This document shows, in pieces, positions 2,739-26,874 of a stretch of 52,292 nucleotides of DNA (positions are counted from its first letter, which is position 1; each line of letters starts with the position of its first letter). The position numbers and the translations under genes are program-made. The notes beneath the pieces were generated by a model that ran no database searches, was not told the origin of the DNA, and saw nothing but the letters and a program-made list of their open reading frames with translations. Source of the DNA: Treponema sp. GTDB taxonomy: Bacteria > Spirochaetota > Spirochaetia > Treponematales > Breznakiellaceae. Location: assembly GCA_009788065.1 (NCBI GenBank), contig WQSF01000009.1, positions 1 to 52,292 of the forward strand, in the 5' to 3' direction.

Positions 2739-3347
2739 TTAAATAAACTTCCAGCCTGCTGCCGTCAGTAACATCCAGCGCGGATTTTTCGGATCTGATG
2801 TTTTATTTAACCAATAAAAACCGATTTGCGCTGTTCTGTCCGATTCCGCAATTGTCGAGCCGGCTGGCGGAACATTTCCGCTGACTTTGATTTCGACAGG
2901 TTTTTCACGCGGTACTAACCAGCCGAGTACATTTCCATACCCTGTTTCGCGCTTGACAAGTCCTTTGCTCGTTCCCTTATTCACATCACGCGCCGGATTA
3001 TCGAAACCATCCTGTTCCATAATGCCCAAGCGTATTTGCCCTGATTCATCTGATACCGCAATATGTCCGAAAGAATTATTCGGTGTAGTACCCCAAACAA
3101 CCTTCGCGCCGTCAGGCGGTATCATGCCTGGCTGATATGCAATTTTGAAATATGCCGCTTTTAATTTTGGCATATCATCATACTTCGTAAAGAAGTCAAC
3201 CGCGCCGCGGACACCTTCGATGTCGCTATAGCCGTCAACTTCGCTCATGTGCGAACGGGCAGCGTCTACACACTGCCCGCCGTAAGCCTTATCCACATCA
3301 ATAATGATGTGCAAATATTTATTTACCCACTGTTTGTGTGTGATCAT
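2739..3347 (-). CDS. CHAP-domain endolysin
   Basis: 202 residues, AAGGAG before the ATG. The N-terminal 145 residues look like a CHAP amidase/peptidase: catalytic Cys26 in YGGQCVDAA and His95 in SFGHIAVSD. The C-terminal 50 residues, after a Pro-rich joint, end in RWMLLTAAGWKFI and may be a small wall-binding module. It should cleave peptidoglycan at lysis. Membrane-protein genes lie just upstream (holin candidates) and the spanin-like pair just downstream. There is no signal peptide, so release would depend on a holin. Confidence 0.75.
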   Translation of the reverse strand: MITHKQWVNKYLHIIIDVDKAYGGQCVDAARSHMSEVDGYSDIEGVRGAVDFFTKYDDMPKLKAAYFKIAYQPGMIPPDGAKVVWGTTPNNSFGHIAVSDESGQIRLGIMEQDGFDNPARDVNKGTSKGLVKRETGYGNVLGWLVPREKPVEIKVSGNVPPAGSTIAESDRTAQIGFYWLNKTSDPKNPRWMLLTAAGWKFI

Positions 3348-3362
3348 TTGATACTCCTTAAA

Positions 3363-3671
3363 TTATTTATTTTTTAACGCGATTTCTATTTTCGCGTTTT
3401 CTATAGCTTTACCAATGGCTAGCGGCATCATAAATATTAAAGTTACACCTGCCGAAATCCATAATATCTGCCCTGTATATTCTTTCCCTACCAATGGAGT
3501 AAATAGAGCGATTGTTTGCAAAATCATGTATACAATCCATGCGATGAAAACATTTTGTGCTTTGGACATCCAGAACTTTCCCCAATCCCATTTGAATTTA
3601 TGCGTATGTTCAAAACCACAATTAGGACAAACGTGTTTTTCTAACGCGGCAGCGTTGTCGTGAGGAATCAT
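3363..3671 (-). CDS. two-helix membrane protein with zinc knuckle (holin candidate)
   Basis: 102 residues. Residues 15-23 hold CPNCGFEHTH, half of a zinc ribbon. Two membrane helices follow (about 41-60 and 68-87), with a charged C-terminus. Size, topology and a place directly before the endolysin fit a class II holin, but the zinc-like head is not typical of holins. It overlaps the preceding gene by four bases, so translation is probably coupled. Confidence 0.5.
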   Translation of the reverse strand: MIPHDNAAALEKHVCPNCGFEHTHKFKWDWGKFWMSKAQNVFIAWIVYMILQTIALFTPLVGKEYTGQILWISAGVTLIFMMPLAIGKAIENAKIEIALKNK

Positions 3672-4243
3672 ATATTCTCCGATTTATTCACAGCAGCTTC
3701 CGCATTTTTTTGAATCTTATCTTCAATCGCATCTATTTTCAGATGCGGCGCAAGCTTCATAGCCATTCTGTATTCAGGAACATTTTTAGATGCAAAATCT
3801 ATGACATCTTTTTTTAACTGATGATTATATCCTTCATAGATATATTTTAATCCAGCAACTAAGCGTTCTTCATCGTTCATATCTTCCATTGAAAAAATAA
3901 CTTTATAAAGGTCAATTTGCATATCATTTTGTTTTCCGATGATGACCTTATTTTCTTCACGAAGTTTTACTAATATTTCTTCATTGGATTTTACAATTTC
4001 TTTGTATTGCGATTTACTTTCTAATAACGTACTATGAAGTTCATCAAAACGTTTCCATATAGTTTTTATTACAGCCGCTGTTTGCTCATCAATCCCGCCT
4101 AAATCTAATTCTAAGCCTGCCGGCGTTTTCAAATGTTTCATGCGTGATACAACACTTTTAAATATTCCAGAAACAATTAAATAACCAACGCCTATTGCTA
4201 TTACAATTTCTACAAGGCGGATTTCCTGTAAACTAATTTCCAT
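3668..4243 (-). CDS. N-terminally anchored coiled-coil membrane protein
   Basis: 191 residues with one membrane helix (about 11-32) and then a long charged helical region (about 60-110) likely to be coiled coil. Located in the lysis block between a small helical protein and the holin candidate. It could be a holin, antiholin or lysis modulator. No family recognised. Confidence 0.5.
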   Translation of the reverse strand: MEISLQEIRLVEIVIAIGVGYLIVSGIFKSVVSRMKHLKTPAGLELDLGGIDEQTAAVIKTIWKRFDELHSTLLESKSQYKEIVKSNEEILVKLREENKVIIGKQNDMQIDLYKVIFSMEDMNDEERLVAGLKYIYEGYNHQLKKDVIDFASKNVPEYRMAMKLAPHLKIDAIEDKIQKNAEAAVNKSENI

Positions 4244-4424
4244 TATAATTATCCTTTATATAGAATTCGTCCCCAGTTAATTCAAAGAGGGTTTTGTCGA
4301 TGATGTCCTTCGCTTCAAAGATATTTTTTCTGTAGGTGTCAAGTTTGTTATACATACCGATAATGAGGCTGATGTCCTCTCTTACAGTACGAAGTTTTTC
4401 AATTAGTTCCTTTTGTTCTATCAC
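4233..4424 (-). CDS. small helical protein, hypothetical
   Basis: 63 residues, mostly one or two amphipathic helices (EKLRTVREDISLIIG, KDIIDKTLFEL). It overlaps the next gene by 11 bases, which suggests coupled translation within the lysis block. Function unknown. Confidence 0.5.
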   Translation of the reverse strand: MIEQKELIEKLRTVREDISLIIGMYNKLDTYRKNIFEAKDIIDKTLFELTGDEFYIKDNYNGN

Positions 4425-4445
4425 GCTTTCCCCTCTCTGCGTTAT

Positions 4446-4850
4446 TTATTCAGCAGTTCTTACGCCCAATTCCACAAGCCTTGTGCGGATTTCATTTATG
4501 CGGTTTCTGCAAAATTCGCGGCGCTCATGAAGAACAGGATCAGTCTGCGAAAGTACCTGCCCAAATTCCGATGCCTTGATGACTTTATAATCCTTCCCAT
4601 CCAATTCTCTCTGGAAAGTTATTTCTTCTTTTTCAAGACTTTCGATTTCTTCTCTGTTCGCTTTCGCTGTGGGTTCTTCGCCTAATTTGATTTTTCCGGT
4701 GCTGTCGATATATGCGGTGCTTCCGGCTGCTTCCCATTCCTCGATTGTTACCGTTTTATCAGCTTTTGAAATTCCATCGAGCTGCGCCATGGCAGCAAGA
4801 TCCGTGTGGTAAATAACTTTACCGTTTTTCTTTGCCAGATAAATGTTCAT
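4446..4850 (-). CDS. hypothetical late protein, first gene after the left promoter-terminator element
   Basis: 134 residues from the ATG at 4850, after AAAGGAG. The N-terminal part looks like a small beta fold (MNIYLAKKNGKVIYHTD), then an EEWEAAGSTAYIDSTGKI turn, and a helical charged C-terminal half (about 70-130). It is the first gene after the duplicated promoter-hairpin-terminator and so begins the lysis-side block. Family not recognised. Confidence 0.55.
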   Translation of the reverse strand: MNIYLAKKNGKVIYHTDLAAMAQLDGISKADKTVTIEEWEAAGSTAYIDSTGKIKLGEEPTAKANREEIESLEKEEITFQRELDGKDYKVIKASEFGQVLSQTDPVLHERREFCRNRINEIRTRLVELGVRTAE

Positions 4851-4879
4851 CAAATACTCCTTTCCCTTTTTTGGGCAAT

Positions 4880-4935
4880 AAAAAAAGCCCGCAGAGACAG
4901 GCAGAGAATAATTCTCAATCTGTCACTACGGGCTT
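4880..4935 (-). terminator. Rho-independent terminator (left copy)
   Basis: Long GC-rich stem starting GAAGCCCG and ending CGGGCTT, followed by T7 (4880-4886). It ends transcripts coming from the reverse transcriptase gene as well as the short RNA above. Confidence 0.8.
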
Positions 4936-4964
4936 CCGCGAATTCGGTAGGCCGAATAAATTAT
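4880..4964 (-). ncRNA. structured short RNA, left copy (promoter-proximal hairpins and terminator)
   Basis: The predicted transcript has hairpin ATTCGG-CCTA-CCGAAT (4942-4957). A long imperfect hairpin follows (4885-4935), built from AAGCCCG/CGGGCTT, GACAG/CTGTC and an apical GAGAA-TTA-TTCTC, then seven Ts. A second copy at 26789-26874 keeps all paired parts, and its few differences fall mostly in unpaired positions. It could be a terminated leader like lambda 6S/tR' or a small RNA. Confidence 0.6.
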
Positions 4965-4970
4965 ATTACG

Positions 4971-4999
4971 AGTTTACTACTTCATAAATATATAGTCAA
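4971..4999 (-). promoter_or_regulatory. sigma70-like promoter, left copy
   Basis: TTGACT (4994-4999), 17 bp spacer, TAAACT (4971-4976) on the minus strand, a few bases before the first hairpin. The stop codon of the reverse transcriptase gene (TGA) is embedded in the -35 box, just as the upstream gene's stop is in the right copy. Confidence 0.55.
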
Positions 5000-6141
5000 G
5001 TATTTTTTGGGTGTTCATGTATAAATAAATTATCATAAAAATTGTCCATGAATTTTACTTTTTTGTAGGCATGAAAACGCCTTGTAAAGTTACCGCGCCA
5101 TGACTGGAATGCTACCCTTATGTCCTGATAATCCATTCTGCCCTCAGTAACAAGGGATTTAAAACATTTAAGTTTCCGGCGCATTCTTTTCGCAGATTCT
5201 TTTGTCGGCTTTTTATATATCTTTCCGTTCGCCTGTAGAAAGTATTTTCCTTTTAGAAATAAAAGCCCATCGCTTAATGGGAATATCCGCGTTTTCCTTT
5301 CGTTGACTGTTATGCCCAAGGTTTCACATATCACTTTTATTTTTTCAAGGCATTCCTCAAGAAACTTTTTATCCTTATGAATAAGATACAGATCATCCAT
5401 ATAGCGGCCGTAATACTTAATCCTCATTTTCTCTTTTATTGCATGGTCAAGTTCATTGCAATGGAAAATCGCGAACACCTGCGAAACCTGACTGCCTAAT
5501 CCCAAAGAAACATTATCGCCGAATGGCTTTATAAATTGCCAAATAAGATCAATTATCCTTTCATCTTTTATATATTTTCTTACACGCTCCATTAAAATAT
5601 CATGCTTAATGCTGTCAAAATATTTCCTGAAATCTATTGTCAGCGCGTAACCTTCATTTGAATAATTATTTTGTCTGTAGTATTTTGCAAGATGAGTAAT
5701 AAGCCGTTTTATCGCAAAATGTATTCCTTTATTTTTAACCGATGCGCCGTTATCGTAAATAAGAGTACGGCAGAGTATAGGCACAAGTATCTGGTCGCAT
5801 AACGCTTTCTGTACAACACGTTCTGAAATATGAATAGATTTTATATGCCGTTTCTTTCCGCGCTCATTCAAATCAAATTCTACAAAACCGTGATGTATTT
5901 CCTTTCCGTTTTCAAGCCTCTCTATGGTATCGGAAATATTATTAAATAAACTCATTTCATAACGCTGGGTAGATTCTTTCCATGACACGCCTTTTCTACA
6001 TGAACGGAAAGCGGAATATAAAACATTTGGATCTGTCAGGATTGTAAAATCGTCAAGAGGCGTGATTATATCCTCGCGTTTTTTATCTCTCTTTTCTTTT
6101 CTTCTCTGATAACGCGCTGATTTTCTTTCGTTACTCGTCAT
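4996..6141 (-). CDS. DGR reverse transcriptase
   Basis: 381 residues, close to the usual DGR enzyme length. Ordered RT motifs: QKALCDQILVPIL (about 111-123), catalytic TIDFRKYFDSI (Asp170), LGSQVSQ (215-221) followed by NELDHAIK, and the active-site YMDD (247-250). The SQ form of motif 4 followed by N-LDH is characteristic of DGR enzymes rather than retrons or group II introns. The N-terminus is strongly basic. It should copy TR RNA into adenine-mutated cDNA for transfer to VR. Only a weak ribosome site (CAGGG) precedes the ATG. No intron or retron RNA structure was seen. Confidence 0.93.
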   Translation of the reverse strand: MTSNERKSARYQRRKEKRDKKREDIITPLDDFTILTDPNVLYSAFRSCRKGVSWKESTQRYEMSLFNNISDTIERLENGKEIHHGFVEFDLNERGKKRHIKSIHISERVVQKALCDQILVPILCRTLIYDNGASVKNKGIHFAIKRLITHLAKYYRQNNYSNEGYALTIDFRKYFDSIKHDILMERVRKYIKDERIIDLIWQFIKPFGDNVSLGLGSQVSQVFAIFHCNELDHAIKEKMRIKYYGRYMDDLYLIHKDKKFLEECLEKIKVICETLGITVNERKTRIFPLSDGLLFLKGKYFLQANGKIYKKPTKESAKRMRRKLKCFKSLVTEGRMDYQDIRVAFQSWRGNFTRRFHAYKKVKFMDNFYDNLFIHEHPKNT

Positions 6142-6161
6142 GCTGTTGCCCTGTATAACAT

Positions 6162-6201
6162 CCTCCGGGCGTTCGGGCTTAATAGCAATGAAGCCCGGAG
6201 G
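6162..6201 (-). other. hairpin between TR and RT, two exclusive folds
   Basis: CCTCCGGGC (6162-6170) and GCCCGGAGG (6193-6201) form a perfect 9-bp stem. The inner CGGGCTT (6174-6180) and AAGCCCG (6191-6197) form a competing 7-bp stem. It lies about 20 nt before the RT start codon on the sense strand, and GGAGG is buried in the outer stem. It could shape the TR RNA or tune RT translation. Confidence 0.55.
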
Positions 6202-6392
6202 CGTGCGCTTGTCATGTTACATAGTGCCAATAGGTATGAAACGGATGAAACGCACATCATTCCGCCATGCAAGAAGCGTTCACCTAGGCACATCAGGGTT
6301 ATTATTCTCCGCAAAGCGGAAGGATACAGTCTCCTTCTGTGGAGAGGCAAATCGGTTGTAAACAACCTACTGTTAATATGCCTCCACTGAAT

Positions 6393-6484
6393 CGGGGGCA
6401 ACACCGCCGACAGAACTCGCGTTGTTGTTGTTACTATTACCATTGTTGTTGACATTACAGAAGTTAGCAGAGGAGGAAGCCGAT
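6393..6484 (-). repeat. DGR template repeat (TR)
   Basis: 92 bp between the Avd-like gene and RT. It matches VR at 80 of 92 positions. The sense strand carries ten AAC/AAT codons in the phase of the target gene, the usual DGR design because mutated Asn codons rarely become stops. All 12 differences from VR fall on sense-strand adenines, out of 23 adenines. The last 28 or so bases before the 3' end are identical to VR, then the sequences part, consistent with an IMH-type boundary. The overlapping 122-codon open frame is not considered a gene. Confidence 0.93.
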
Positions 6485-6510
6485 AACAGACCGTACCCTT
6501 ATTCACGATT

Positions 6511-7092
6511 TTAATTTTCTCCCTTAATAATTTTCTTTGCCAGATCGTTAGTTGATTTTCGCCAGCCTTTCAGTAATTGAATTTCTTTTTCTATTTTCTG
6601 AACATAGGGAATTAGTTTTTTAACGTCTATAGTAAAGTTATCAAAACGAAGGGAAAACACATCTTTGAAATATTGTAATTCTTGAATGAGCTGATAACAA
6701 TTTGCAATCGCGGCTGTTTGGTATCTGCGCCTGTCTGCCAATTCATCAGACTGGACACGGCGCACATATTCAATCGGCATTTTTTGAACATCGGGAGTTT
6801 TCGGATCAACCATCGGCGAAGGGTATATCGAATTTCCGGCAGTAATATTCATCATCAGGTTTCGGCATAAATCCATTATGCGTGTCCTGAAATTATCTAT
6901 CATCCAGTCAGGTATTTCTCCGGGTAGAGCAACCTCTTCATCGGCAGGGATTTCTTTTGGCTGTTCGATTTGTTTTTTTGGTCTTATTCCGAAGTTTCTT
7001 AATAGGTAGGCTGTTAATTCCGCTCTCAATTCGCGGGCATTATTGTAAAATTCAAGCCGAGATATGCCTCGCTTCCTTTTTATAACAGACAA
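6511..7092 (-). CDS. Avd-like DGR accessory protein (four-helix type)
   Basis: 193 residues from a TTG at 7092 that follows GGGAGGGGGG; an earlier TTG at 7125 has no ribosome site. Predicted as mostly helices: residues about 8-30 (SRLEFYNNARELRAELTAYL), about 65-90, about 115-145, and 155-185 ending in LLKGWRKS. Position between the VR gene and TR matches avd in BPP-1, where the protein binds the RT as a helical bundle. The helical make-up and basic surface fit that role. It is longer than the canonical Avd of about 128 residues, with a Pro-rich joint near residues 40-60. The assignment rests on position and architecture. Confidence 0.6.
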   Translation of the reverse strand: MSVIKRKRGISRLEFYNNARELRAELTAYLLRNFGIRPKKQIEQPKEIPADEEVALPGEIPDWMIDNFRTRIMDLCRNLMMNITAGNSIYPSPMVDPKTPDVQKMPIEYVRRVQSDELADRRRYQTAAIANCYQLIQELQYFKDVFSLRFDNFTIDVKKLIPYVQKIEKEIQLLKGWRKSTNDLAKKIIKGEN

Positions 7093-7136
7093 TGCCCCCC
7101 TCCCGGCAAGACCCGCAAAATTCAAATTTTTTTCCG

Positions 7137-7233
7137 GTCGCTTACGCGACAGATAAAATTAAGGGTGGGCTGCAAAGCAGCCCACTGGAAGTATCATATC
7201 ACAGACAACTCTCACCCCACAAGGGGGTGAGAG
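7137..7233 (-). other. three consecutive hairpins after the VR gene
   Basis: Stems: CTCTCACCCC/GGGGTGAGAG (7209-7233, 10 bp, 5-nt loop), GTGGGCTGC/GCAGCCCAC (7165-7185, 9 bp, 3-nt loop) and GTCGC/GCGAC (7137-7150). None has a strong T run on the minus strand. In Bordetella DGR a DNA hairpin just past VR improves target recognition; here the nearest one lies about 70 bp past VR. They may also separate the target gene from the Avd-like gene. Confidence 0.6.
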
Positions 7234-7285
7234 AACAGGATGAGTGTGGCTACACTTTGCAATGCGCCCACATCTTGCTTTATTT

Positions 7286-8548
7286 TTACGCCACACAGAA
7301 AGCGGGGGCAACACCGCCGACAGAACTCGCGTAGTAGCTGCTACTATGACCATAGTTGCCGACACCACAGAAGTGAGCAGAGGAGGAAGCCGAGGGAGTA
7401 GAAAGCCAGCGCCAAGTTCTCGCGCCATTCCAATCCGCAACCCTGAAAATAGTGCTGTCTTGAAATAGCGGAAACTGCACGTTTGTCGTATACCCAACGC
7501 GCTGAGCAACAACAGGCGATGTAAGTGCTGCCATATAAACACCTTCATCGCCGTAATACGGAACGCCGAACATTTCAATTTCTGAGGGAATAAACACAGT
7601 GTAATTTCCCCATGCGTAATCGCTTTTTTTACTGTGCGCTTTTCTTATGGTATAAAGTACATCACCAAGTTTTTGTTTTAATGCTGTTGCGAAAATACCG
7701 CTTCCGTCACCTGTCGCACCTTCAAGCCAAACCCTTAATGCGCTTGCCTGATAACCGCCAGTATTATCATTTGTCGGATTCATCGGGCTTCTTGCAATAT
7801 TATGCCTAAATGAAAACAAGATATGATTTTTCGCATTAACTGTATCGCCAGCCCTTTTGTATGTGTTAAAACCTGCAATAACAATTCTGTTATTCTTGTA
7901 ATTTTCATTCCATGCCTGCGGAGCATCACCCCCAGTCGGTGCCGCGATTCCGCTTAAATCCAAACCGTCAATATAATCGCCGATCATAAGATCGCTGAAA
8001 TCAGGAATACCGCTGTTGTCAATTTGACCGCTGTTATTACATCTGCGCTGTAATTCAATCGACGCTTCCTGAATTGTGGTAACGCCAAGAATATCAAGTA
8101 AGTTTCTGCCGTAACCTTCGACTGATGCCGAATGAAGCATTGATAAATCAGGATTAACAATATCGGGACCGTCATTAACCCACTCGAAAACAGGGGGATC
8201 GCTGTCGGGTGTGTTATTCAAAACCCAAACATAACCGTCAAACAAATTCTTTACGCGGGTATTATTGAAAATCATCAACTGATCTGTAATACCAATTTCC
8301 GCTAACGCATAATTTGTCAACATCTGCTGTGTCGGTGTTAATGTACCGAAATCATGCGCCGACAGATAACCGCCTCTGCCTTTTAACATCGCTACTTGCC
8401 TATTAAGAAAAACAGTTCTGTTAGCAAGCTGCTGTAACGGAATATTATCTACTCCGAGATCGTTTCCTGTTGCGCCCTGCAAATAATCGTCAATCTCAAA
8501 TCGGCGAACGCCCTCTTCCCATACCGGGCTTTCTGGTATAAATGCCAT
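7286..8548 (-). CDS. DGR target: tail-associated variable protein with DUF6273-like C-terminus
   Basis: 420 residues, AAGGAG before the ATG. The N-terminal 150 residues look like a tail-fibre attachment region (FIPESPVW, LANRTVFLNRQVA). From about 185 (LMIGDYIDGLDLSG) to the end it resembles the DUF6273 fold, with NRIVIAGFNTY, a WRWLS box and the terminal SSVGGVAPAFCVA typical of that family. VR encodes the last 35 or so residues. The ten TR Asn codons correspond to residues 392, 395, 397-399, 401 and 403-406, now H, G, G, N, Y, H, S, S, Y, Y. It follows the baseplate and tail protein I genes, so it is probably a receptor-binding tip. Confidence 0.88.
   Translation of the reverse strand: MAFIPESPVWEEGVRRFEIDDYLQGATGNDLGVDNIPLQQLANRTVFLNRQVAMLKGRGGYLSAHDFGTLTPTQQMLTNYALAEIGITDQLMIFNNTRVKNLFDGYVWVLNNTPDSDPPVFEWVNDGPDIVNPDLSMLHSASVEGYGRNLLDILGVTTIQEASIELQRRCNNSGQIDNSGIPDFSDLMIGDYIDGLDLSGIAAPTGGDAPQAWNENYKNNRIVIAGFNTYKRAGDTVNAKNHILFSFRHNIARSPMNPTNDNTGGYQASALRVWLEGATGDGSGIFATALKQKLGDVLYTIRKAHSKKSDYAWGNYTVFIPSEIEMFGVPYYGDEGVYMAALTSPVVAQRVGYTTNVQFPLFQDSTIFRVADWNGARTWRWLSTPSASSSAHFCGVGNYGHSSSYYASSVGGVAPAFCVA
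7303..7394 (-). repeat. DGR variable repeat (VR)
   Basis: 92 bp at the 3' end of the target gene, 17 bp before the end of its stop codon. Compared with TR there are 12 changes on the sense strand: six A to G, three A to T, three A to C, and none at C, G or T. Several Asn codons are changed at two positions (AAT to GGT, AAC to GGC), a mark of repeated mutagenic retrohoming. Confidence 0.93.
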
Positions 8549-10261: not shown

Positions 10262-11502
10262 TATGCTTCCTCTAATCCTTGATAATTTACTGATTTGTTA
10301 CCGCCGAATTGCGCGGCTTCATATATTTTCAGCTCTGTATATACCGGCTCTGTTATAACAACACGTTTCACTCCGCAATTCATTACAAGTTTATGCAGAG
10401 TATCAGGGTTTATATCTAAACCAAGTCTGGATTTTTGCCACTCGATATATTGTTCTACCGCAGCGTCAACAGCATCAATAATTGAGGCTGCTTCTGTCGC
10501 TCTTTCTATTTCAATCCAGTATTGAAAATCAATATTAAACTCGACTGATTCAGGCATAACAACATGAACGTAATCTGTCAGCGGACGGCGCGTTTTCGGC
10601 GATAGTGTTTCCGATACCTGGCTTAATACTTCCTCAGAAGGTAACTCTCCATTTTTCATAAGCACCGTTACGTCAACATTTCCCGGTCCTGTTCCGCTTT
10701 CTCTGTAATAATTTCCCAATGCTTCATAGAATGCTGCCGCATCTGAAATACCCCATGGCTGTAAGAACGCCGCAAACTTTGTCATATCTAATTCTGGCAT
10801 CCACACCCTTGCATCAACTATGCCGGGATTTGCCGACCTTGCCCAAAACTCATAAGCGCCATCGGGACCAGCAACAGAAAAAGACTCCGGCAGTAACCGC
10901 AGTCTTTGTTTGTAAGTTTCCAGTTCTTCCTTTTCAGCACCGCCGTTCGTTACCGTAATGTTTTCTACCGAAACAACAAACGGCACAAGATCAACCATAT
11001 TTTTTATATCGCCTATTTTGATACCGTCACCGATTGCGCCGGAAGTTAAACTTTGCGCTTCAACATCGACATATAATTCGCCTGCGGGAATTTCTGACTG
11101 CTTTAATGTTGCAAAAAATATTTTATTATCTGATGTTGACCGATAACCTTTCGCAATTACAGTAGTCACATTTCGCGGAATTGCCAGCTTATACCTTAAT
11201 GTTGTAAGAGCGTAAGAAGCAGCCATGCGGTTGCCGCGCTCTCCATATAAATAACCGATGTGTTCTACAGTAGAATCATCTGCGAAATATAAAAGATTTC
11301 CCTTTCCAGTTTTGTCAATGTCATGATTTACCTGTGCAAGAATTGCCGCTTCGGTTAACTGTATCAGTTTTTCAGGAGCTGCCAGCGATAATCTGAAACC
11401 CGCTTCGCCGTTCGCTCTTTTTATTGTCTCGAACAATTCCTGTAATCTGTCGGCAATAACGCGCGCGTCATCTTGCGAAAATTGTAAAGTATCAAATCCC
11501 AT
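10261..11502 (-). CDS. baseplate J-like protein (P2 gpJ / Mu gp47 family)
   Basis: 413 residues. It has the conserved order ELYVDVEAQSLTSGAIGD..I (about 143-160), VTNGGAEKEELETYKQRL (about 184-201) and a C-terminal TDYVHV..PE..EFNIDFQYWIE region (about 304-327). It forms the baseplate wedge together with the gp25-like protein upstream and gpI downstream. Length is normal. Confidence 0.88.
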   Translation of the reverse strand: MGFDTLQFSQDDARVIADRLQELFETIKRANGEAGFRLSLAAPEKLIQLTEAAILAQVNHDIDKTGKGNLLYFADDSTVEHIGYLYGERGNRMAASYALTTLRYKLAIPRNVTTVIAKGYRSTSDNKIFFATLKQSEIPAGELYVDVEAQSLTSGAIGDGIKIGDIKNMVDLVPFVVSVENITVTNGGAEKEELETYKQRLRLLPESFSVAGPDGAYEFWARSANPGIVDARVWMPELDMTKFAAFLQPWGISDAAAFYEALGNYYRESGTGPGNVDVTVLMKNGELPSEEVLSQVSETLSPKTRRPLTDYVHVVMPESVEFNIDFQYWIEIERATEAASIIDAVDAAVEQYIEWQKSRLGLDINPDTLHKLVMNCGVKRVVITEPVYTELKIYEAAQFGGNKSVNYQGLEEA

Positions 11503-11503
11503 A

Positions 11504-11818
11504 TTATAACCTCACTTGTACGGTAACATTTGGCTTAAAACTTCCGCTTAACGGATCAGCACGCCAAGTTATTTGTTTGAGTATTGCCCGCGGCTCATAC
11601 TTCCTTAACTGCATAAATATTTCTTGCTCTGCCATTGCTTGTGCTTTGTGAATTGGACTATCTACAAAATTAAAAGAGATACCAAAATTACGATCCAGCG
11701 GTAATGTGCCTTTCGGTGTTGTAATTATCGTTCTTACGTTTTGCATAACTTCCTGTAAATCCTTTGCGCCGAAAACAATACCCGCAGGAAGTGTATCTGT
11801 TGTTGAAAATTCAGCCAT
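11504..11818 (-). CDS. gp25/gpW-like baseplate wedge protein
   Basis: 104 residues with the family pattern VRTIITTPKGTLPLDRNFGI (about 28-47) and the C-terminal PNVTVQVRL. The EPRAILKQI segment gives the conserved E-PR motif. The start overlaps the GpU-like stop (TGATG). Position V-W-J-I is as in P2, with a GpU-like gene inserted. Confidence 0.85.
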   Translation of the reverse strand: MAEFSTTDTLPAGIVFGAKDLQEVMQNVRTIITTPKGTLPLDRNFGISFNFVDSPIHKAQAMAEQEIFMQLRKYEPRAILKQITWRADPLSGSFKPNVTVQVRL

Positions 11819-12213
11819 CAGTTATACTCCTTAAAATTAACAGTCAATTCCATCCACAATACTTCGCCTGTTCCCGCGGCAAACTTTGAGGAAGCTCCAC
11901 TAATTGAATCGAGATACCAATTGTTTCCAGATAGAGGAAAGCCCCGCAGAATAACAGGAAAGTTTTGACCTGTGCGTACCATTTGCCTTAATAACTCATA
12001 TTCTGCTTCTGGATTTACACCTAACATCTTTGAAAGGATAATCCTCATTTCTGCCTCATCTTGACCGGGACCTAAAAACTCAGTAATCGGCGCGGTGTTC
12101 ACAACTTCGTGAACAGCCCACCGCCCGGAAACATCCTGAGTAAGTTCTGAAAATGTTAATGCGCCGATACCCGAAACATCGAAGACCAACGGTCCCCATG
12201 AACCTAAAAGCAT
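11818..12213 (-). CDS. P2 GpU-like tail protein
   Basis: 131 residues beginning MLLGSWGPLVFDV, with the family's E-LGPGQD-A-M...L. motif (EFLGPGQDEAEMRI, residues about 46-59) and a PVILRGFPLSG..WY segment. GpU proteins act in tail completion. In P2 the gene lies near D and X; here it lies between the spike and wedge genes. Confidence 0.8.
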   Translation of the reverse strand: MLLGSWGPLVFDVSGIGALTFSELTQDVSGRWAVHEVVNTAPITEFLGPGQDEAEMRIILSKMLGVNPEAEYELLRQMVRTGQNFPVILRGFPLSGNNWYLDSISGASSKFAAGTGEVLWMELTVNFKEYN

Positions 12214-26761: not shown

Positions 26762-26788
26762 TCCCCTCTCCATGTTTTTCGGACAAAT

Positions 26789-26844
26789 AAAAAAAGCCCG
26801 CAGAGACAGGCAGAGAATAATTCTCTAACTGTCGCTACGGGCTT
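26789..26844 (-). terminator. Rho-independent terminator (right copy)
   Basis: Long GC-rich hairpin followed by T7 (26789-26795). It would stop transcription between the terminase block and the gpW-portal block unless antitermination or another promoter is used. Confidence 0.8.
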
Positions 26845-26874
26845 CCGCATGTTCGGTAGGCCGAATATATTGTT
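26789..26874 (-). ncRNA. structured short RNA, right copy
   Basis: Hairpin TTCGG-CCTA-CCGAA (26852-26865), then the long hairpin 26794-26844 (AAGCCCG/CGGGCTT, GACAG/CTGTC, apical AGAGAA-TTA-TTCTCT), then seven Ts. Very similar to 4880-4964 in sequence and layout. Here it stands before the head and tail genes. Confidence 0.6.

Follow-up and report, generated by a model that had tools for sequence, protein, structure and literature searches.

Diversity-generating retroelements (DGRs) are already well known. In the DGR of phage BPP-1 (mtd-avd-TR-brt, NC_005357), the target gene, an avd gene, a template repeat (TR) and a reverse transcriptase (RT) gene lie on one strand, and the record names the target, Mtd, a tail protein and receptor-binding protein. 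The locus described here lies in a stretch of 52,292 nucleotides from Treponema sp. (contig WQSF01000009.1 of assembly GCA_009788065.1), referred to below as the window, and it is almost certainly a DGR of the BPP-1 type. Its parts, the adenine-confined differences between TR and variable repeat (VR), the joint change of TR and VR among relatives, purifying selection and a covarying RNA can all be read from the sequence. The one-strand order, the TR/VR pair, an Avd protein and a structured RNA in the gap between TR and RT are shared with BPP-1. The window differs in that its RT is only distantly related to that of BPP-1 (56 bits), its TR has 94 nt instead of 134, its Avd-like protein has 204 aa against 128 aa by the BPP-1 record coordinates, and its target is a DUF6273 protein and not Mtd. 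The gap RNA is also of another kind, being Rfam RT-2 in the window, whereas that of BPP-1 matches RF03022 (Phage_DGR) and not RT-2.

The best match in the phage collection is Roseburia phage Shimadzu (LR596903), whose RT is 47% identical to that of the window and whose genes follow the same order: baseplate J, tail protein P2_I, tail fibre, Avd and RT. Its TR and VR differ at 18 positions, 17 of them at A, and its gap also holds an RT-2 RNA. Shimadzu differs in being named for Roseburia (the host field is empty) and in having a shorter Avd gene (411 nt by record coordinates). According to PMC11792537, two of its proteins are diversified. For window positions 1-24000 no near DNA match was found, and in the phage collection neither target nor Avd gave a tblastn match at E 1e-5. 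Because Roux et al. 2021 (PMC8144416) surveyed the genomes and metagenomes of IMG, the locus may already be in their catalogue.

The preliminary description of the window had placed a complete element at 4996..8548 on a single strand, with an RT bearing an SQ motif and YMDD and with the BPP-1 gene order. All parts were recovered there on the minus strand, to which the RT-2 RNA, the helix arms and the VR-side hairpins described below also belong, and the order of target, Avd-like open reading frame (ORF), TR and RT agrees with the annotated BPP-1 record. The target gene (7286..8548, 420 aa) carries the VR of 94 nt (7300..7393) at its 3' end, in codons 386-417 of 420. It is followed by the Avd-like accessory protein (6511..7125), the TR (6390..6483), which has 23 adenines and ends in CCCGATT, and the RT gene (4996..6141, 381 aa), in which LGSQVSQ and YMDD are present. 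The RT-2 RNA (6130..6384) fills the gap between TR and RT.

Over the 94 positions of the repeat, TR and VR disagree at 12, each of them one of the 23 TR adenines; the hypergeometric probability that all 12 would land on A by chance is 2.8e-9. The 12 differences first described, all at adenines, are thus found again, with the corrections that the repeat is 94 nt and not 92 nt long and that one difference probably belongs to the boundary. At repeat position 92 the TR reads CCCGATT and the VR CCCGCTT, and opposite this A the VR has C in 31 and T in 2 of the 33 readable loci (among the 71 pairs described below, window included). Since this base is near-constant, the difference is more likely a mark of the TR/VR boundary than a product of mutagenesis, and therefore 11 of the 12 differences count as mutagenesis. 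It resembles the boundary difference between IMH (initiation of mutagenic homing) and IMH* of BPP-1. Read in the VR frame, the TR gives an asparagine-rich stretch (SANFCNVNNNGNSNNNN), and each of its 23 adenines occupies codon position 1 or 2. No extra repeat copy and no VR elsewhere was found in the genome bin (2.14 Mb, 70% complete).

Relatives of the RT were gathered from IMG/VR (4 loci in a first search, then 80 kept of 220), from genome contigs (none in a first search, then 19) and from genomes of the genus and order, giving 101 RT loci, numbered with the prefix L; L005 is the window's own contig in IMG/VR. The nearest relative is L004 (IMGVR 3300002552_000008), at 92% for RT, 88% for Avd and 78% for the target. 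The TRs of these two loci are the same at 80 of 90 aligned positions (22 A and 58 non-A). Their VRs differ at 11 of the 22 shared adenines and at none of the 58 shared non-A positions (Fisher p 6.7e-8), so variation relative to the nearest relative is limited to TR adenines, as had been proposed. At the 10 positions where the two TRs differ, the VR matches its own TR at 10 positions in the window and at 9 in L004 (19 of 20), as repeated copying from TR to VR predicts. The ratios of nonsynonymous to synonymous change (dN/dS) between window and L004 are 0.069 for RT, 0.081 for Avd and 0.238 for the target, and judged by these values RT and Avd are under purifying selection. Because the VR differences are confined to adenines, the VR follows its own TR and RT and Avd are under this selection, the DGR, which is complete, is very probably functional, in line with the working-looking mutagenic system that had been described.

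Close relatives, too, may have VRs that differ at A alone. In every pair of loci at least 80% identical, the VR differences at shared non-A positions number 0 or 1. The VRs of L049 and L051 (99.5% identical) show 17 differences at A and 0 at non-A, those of L032 and L033 (97.0% identical) 23 and 0, those of L077 and L080 13 and 0, and those of L107 and L108 12 and 1. The TR adenines fall at codon positions 1, 2 and 3 of the targets 1131, 1034 and 67 times; these codon counts and the comparison of near-identical loci use an earlier adenine-favouring list of 74 pairs that includes a false pair of L025 and duplicates. From the 101 loci, 71 distinct TR/VR pairs were drawn (window included), 19 loci having no usable pair, 6 repeating counted pairs and 5 being excluded by hand (L025, L010, L007, L024 and L041). 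In these pairs, 1000 of 1055 differences lie at A, which makes up 27% of TR letters; the changes at A are to G in 478 cases, to T in 318 and to C in 204, and 37 pairs have all their differences at A. The pairs were located by an adenine-favouring score and re-extended by a neutral one, and some ascertainment bias remains in these counts.

It is improbable that the locus is an inactive, decaying remnant that has kept its parts and lost mutagenesis. In favour of such a state, L025 demonstrates that decay can occur, its avd having been lost, apparently through a deletion between VR and TR. Against this stand the open frames of the window, the low dN/dS of RT and Avd, a VR that, at positions where its TR and that of the nearest relative agree, differs from the other VR at adenines only, and the tracking of its own TR by each VR. 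In L025 itself (3339-4634, 4236-4606), the target leads directly into one hybrid VR/TR repeat, whose end reads GATT and which is followed by RT-2 and RT with no avd between; the arrangement looks like a deletion by recombination of VR with TR.

The RNA in the TR-RT gap of the window matches Rfam RT-2 (RF03077) at 6384-6130 over the full model length, with 84.3 bits against a gathering cut-off of 40. Of 53 further clade loci that were scanned, 51 also have RT-2 (12/12, 7/9, 14/14 and 18/18); the 53 are 52 of the 101 RT loci plus Shimadzu, with some near-duplicates among them. It is present in all 14 of the RT loci in which the script found no repeat pair. As measured in 17 loci, RT-2 starts at -1 to 46 nt from the end of the TR (at 2-5 nt in 11 of them), the offset of 46 nt belonging to L028, whose repeat was found in two pieces, and it ends near the RT start. 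Under strict filters, RT-2 was found in 6 of 146 genomes of the order, the window's own included, and a clade RT adjoins it in 6/6; three of the six (L025, L028 and L034) overlap with loci already scanned. The TR/VR differences of five of these genomes are all at A (18, 12 in the window, 6, 13 and 10), and the sixth is the L025 locus, the apparent deletion derivative. Across 32 sequences, two-sided changes occur once or more in 28 of the 34 pairs that RNAalifold gives for the gap RNA. Folded as a single sequence, the complete window RNA does only slightly better than its shuffled versions (z -1.75). Phages Toutatis and VP58.5 gave a match to neither RF03022 nor RT-2.

That the gap is coding, in the form of a 122-aa ORF (6506-6138), instead of holding a structured RNA is very improbable. 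Both the window and L004 keep this frame open, but its dN of 0.094 and dS of 0.126 give a ratio of 0.745, although its nucleotide identity of 90% is the top of seven regions compared, and it was rejected as a gene on this ground. The 84-bit RT-2 match and the two-sided changes also speak against it.

In a large clade of gut-phage DGRs, RT-2 is very probably the conserved 3' half, or scaffold, of a template RNA in which a 5' arm upstream of the TR closes an 11-bp helix that spans the whole TR, holds it in a loop and is absent from the Rfam model. The Rfam model is named for reverse transcriptase only and begins past the TR, and it leaves the strand of the TR-closing helix unpaired. When the TR and its upstream flank were included, RNAalifold (17 sequences) predicted this extra helix between the 5' flank of the TR and the spacer at or after AGAAGGAG. 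In the window, the 5' arm lies between the avd stop and the TR (6488..6500), and the 3' arm (6320..6332) lies at the end of AGAAGGAG (6331-6338) and beyond. Two-sided changes occur at 8 of the 11 pairs, a number reached by 3 of 500 shuffles, and the covariation score of 0.479 compares with 0.204 in shuffles (0/500 reach it) and with no more than 0.151 when the helix is slid; the helix was predicted on the same alignment that was used for scoring, which favours it, and the 17 sequences include L025, which has no 5' arm. The number of further pair types is unremarkable (132 of 500 shuffles as high). In 57 dissimilar loci, taken from the 77 with the motif, the mean pairing energy is -19.7 kcal/mol for matched arms and -12.2 kcal/mol for mismatched arms, and 0 of 10000 permutations reach the matched value; the own arm is the single best partner in just 14 of the 57 loci, and the position of the 5' arm varies. 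In a similar test on BPP-1, 29 of 500 shuffles were as good.

A 2017 paper in Nucleic Acids Research reportedly described the RT motifs. A literature search, which did not reach key papers, returned no statement equating RT-2 with DGR RNA or describing the TR-closing helix. PMC11701678 names RF03077 solely in a table, and PMC12875486 contained none of the RNA terms looked for. One relative, L024 (164-895), carries two tandem RT-2 copies, 71% identical, with a TR-like block before each. The first block is A-rich, and the second differs from it at 20 of 28 of its adenines and at 18 of 78 other positions; the initial bases of the comparison look non-homologous, and the pattern is as if a template had been overwritten in its turn.

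The RT was placed in a tree of 48 rows that includes seven group II RTs and one retron with a very long branch. The window stands next to L004, then L006 and L042, within a 26-row group (100/100) that contains Shimadzu. A branch with 99/95 support holds the window, BPP-1, Shimadzu, VP58.5, Toutatis and eleven Treponema-order RTs on one side, the seven group II RTs lying beyond; BPP-1 is annotated as a DGR and Shimadzu has an annotated Avd, and for VP58.5 and Toutatis the designation as DGR is ours and does not stand in their records. The membership in the DGR clade that had been claimed for this RT is borne out by its grouping with the BPP-1 DGR RT and away from the seven group II intron RTs. 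The chance is negligible that the RT comes from a group II intron or retron and stands beside a chance tandem duplication of a tail gene end: a group II RT model (TIGR04416) is its best NCBIfam match and group II RTs appear among its PDB matches, but the 81 bits of that model lie far under the cut-off of 300, LGSQVSQ stands in place of the GTPQG of 7/7 group II RTs in the tree, the RT lies outside their group at 99/95, the TR/VR differences are confined to A, and the top PDB match is 8ub7 (record name only 'Reverse transcriptase'); such an identity was rejected by tree, motif and sub-cut-off score. The structure 8ub7 is presumably that of the BPP-1 DGR RT.

Two RT relatives, L035 (in the tree) and L033, lie in metagenome-assembled genomes (MAGs) titled Lachnospiraceae and Clostridia, which suggests transfer between phyla or a binning error. 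L009, in a genome (G027) of the same genus as the window's bin, is contained in L026 from Treponema sp. isolate Cd354_bin93, and from this kinship the host of the phage is near Treponema. Isolate codes of this kind are those of termite-gut MAGs.

For the ORF at the avd position, the family phrog_3206, 'Avd protein of DGR', is a match at E 4e-5, and 23 of 29 aligned family members match the ORF; its model shows four long helices (predicted local distance difference test, pLDDT, 76.7). Foldseek compared this model with 2rld, named S23 ribosomal protein family (probability 0.96-0.99, E 0.68-1.8), and 2gsc (probability 0.87-0.99, E 0.52-0.91), and none of its PDB matches attains E 0.001. By phmmer, an Avd-like ORF was found in 52 of the 78 loci having an A-type pair. 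The C-terminal domain of the target belongs to DUF6273 (PF19789, E 4.2e-7), and its residues 1-53 match the tail fiber family phrog_4209 (E 1.1e-5). Its BFVD matches are phage proteins (best E 2.7e-17), some of them named receptor binding, tail-collar or DUF6273. The target model has a pLDDT of 66, and residues 384-409, most of the VR stretch, are under 50. The diversified C-terminal domain most likely binds the host cell surface.

Downstream of the VR lie a 10-bp hairpin with the 5-nt loop CTTGT (7209..7233) and a second hairpin of 9 bp with a 3-nt loop (7165..7185). Homing in BPP-1 requires a hairpin of this type. A stem of at least 7 bp occurs within 100 nt past the VR in 51 of 57 distinct loci, compared with 19 of 601 control segments taken from within target genes and 10 of 285 shuffles. 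The VR hairpin is present in one copy in the bin, allowing up to 3 mismatches, and was rejected as a genome-wide repeat. In L006 and L042 another hairpin directly follows the VR; the window counterparts of its arms (7290-7297 and ~7243-7250) are seemingly ~40 nt apart. Ribozyme matches were also noted roughly 4-6 kb past the start of the RT in L067 (twister-P5 and type II hammerhead, 10849-10902 and 11384-11448) and L073 (type II hammerhead, 11770-11834).

For the transcription and enzymology of the element, the following course is proposed. The TR-bearing transcript would fold so that the 11-bp helix closes the loop in which the TR lies and the RT-2 scaffold anchors this loop. The RT with Avd would then copy the TR into complementary DNA (cDNA), placing random bases opposite template adenines. 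This cDNA would replace the VR in the target, guided by the shared GC-rich 3' end (IMH-like, CCCGATT/CCCGCTT) and by the hairpin past the VR. The outcome would be variants of the C-terminal domain of a tail-tip protein, by which a receptor may be bound.

Several observations weigh against this reading. Activity appears from relatives, not from reads showing VR variation within the population of this phage, and eight pairs of loci at 99.9-100% identity carry identical VRs. In the 71 pairs, 55 of the 1055 differences are not at A, and the lowest share at A in a pair is 0.63. L088 and L090, 2 of the 53 clade loci scanned, have no RT-2 match, and 6 of the 57 distinct loci have no hairpin after the VR. 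The Avd match is modest at E 4e-5, and the PDB fold matches are non-significant by E-value. A C-type lectin fold was not recovered from the low-confidence target model, for which no PDB structure was matched at E 0.001 or better, and retrons are sampled in the RT tree by a single sequence on a long branch.

The neighbouring genes encode baseplate J, tail protein I, tape measure, sheath, major head protein, portal and terminase, and the carrier is a contractile-tailed phage. The element had been assigned to the tail tip of a prophage; the tail-tip setting holds, with baseplate J and tail protein I upstream, but the prophage assignment is not borne out, no match to PF00589 or PF00239, the recombinase families searched, having been found on the contig, which may be incomplete. 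The right end of the contig falls on the first codon of an ORF, so that genes may be missing, and no direct repeat of at least 30 nt joins the two contig ends. A tRNA-Phe lies at the left end (566-638) and is possibly an attachment site or a phage tRNA; contig C3 of the bin holds a stretch 86% similar to it, and C14 a shorter one. An 86-nt terminator-like repeat occurs at 4877-4962, directly past the RT gene, and at 26786-26871 (92% identical), with no other copy found in the bin.

To the DGRs already known, the window adds a member from a Treponema-type host. The assignment of RT-2 and the TR-closing helix are the parts most worth following. If this reading of the RNA is true, a catalogued RNA family would gain a function, the presentation of the template to the RT in this clade. 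RT-2 could also serve to find such DGRs on contigs without a TR or VR. Moreover, the TR-closing helix is a specific and testable structural prediction.

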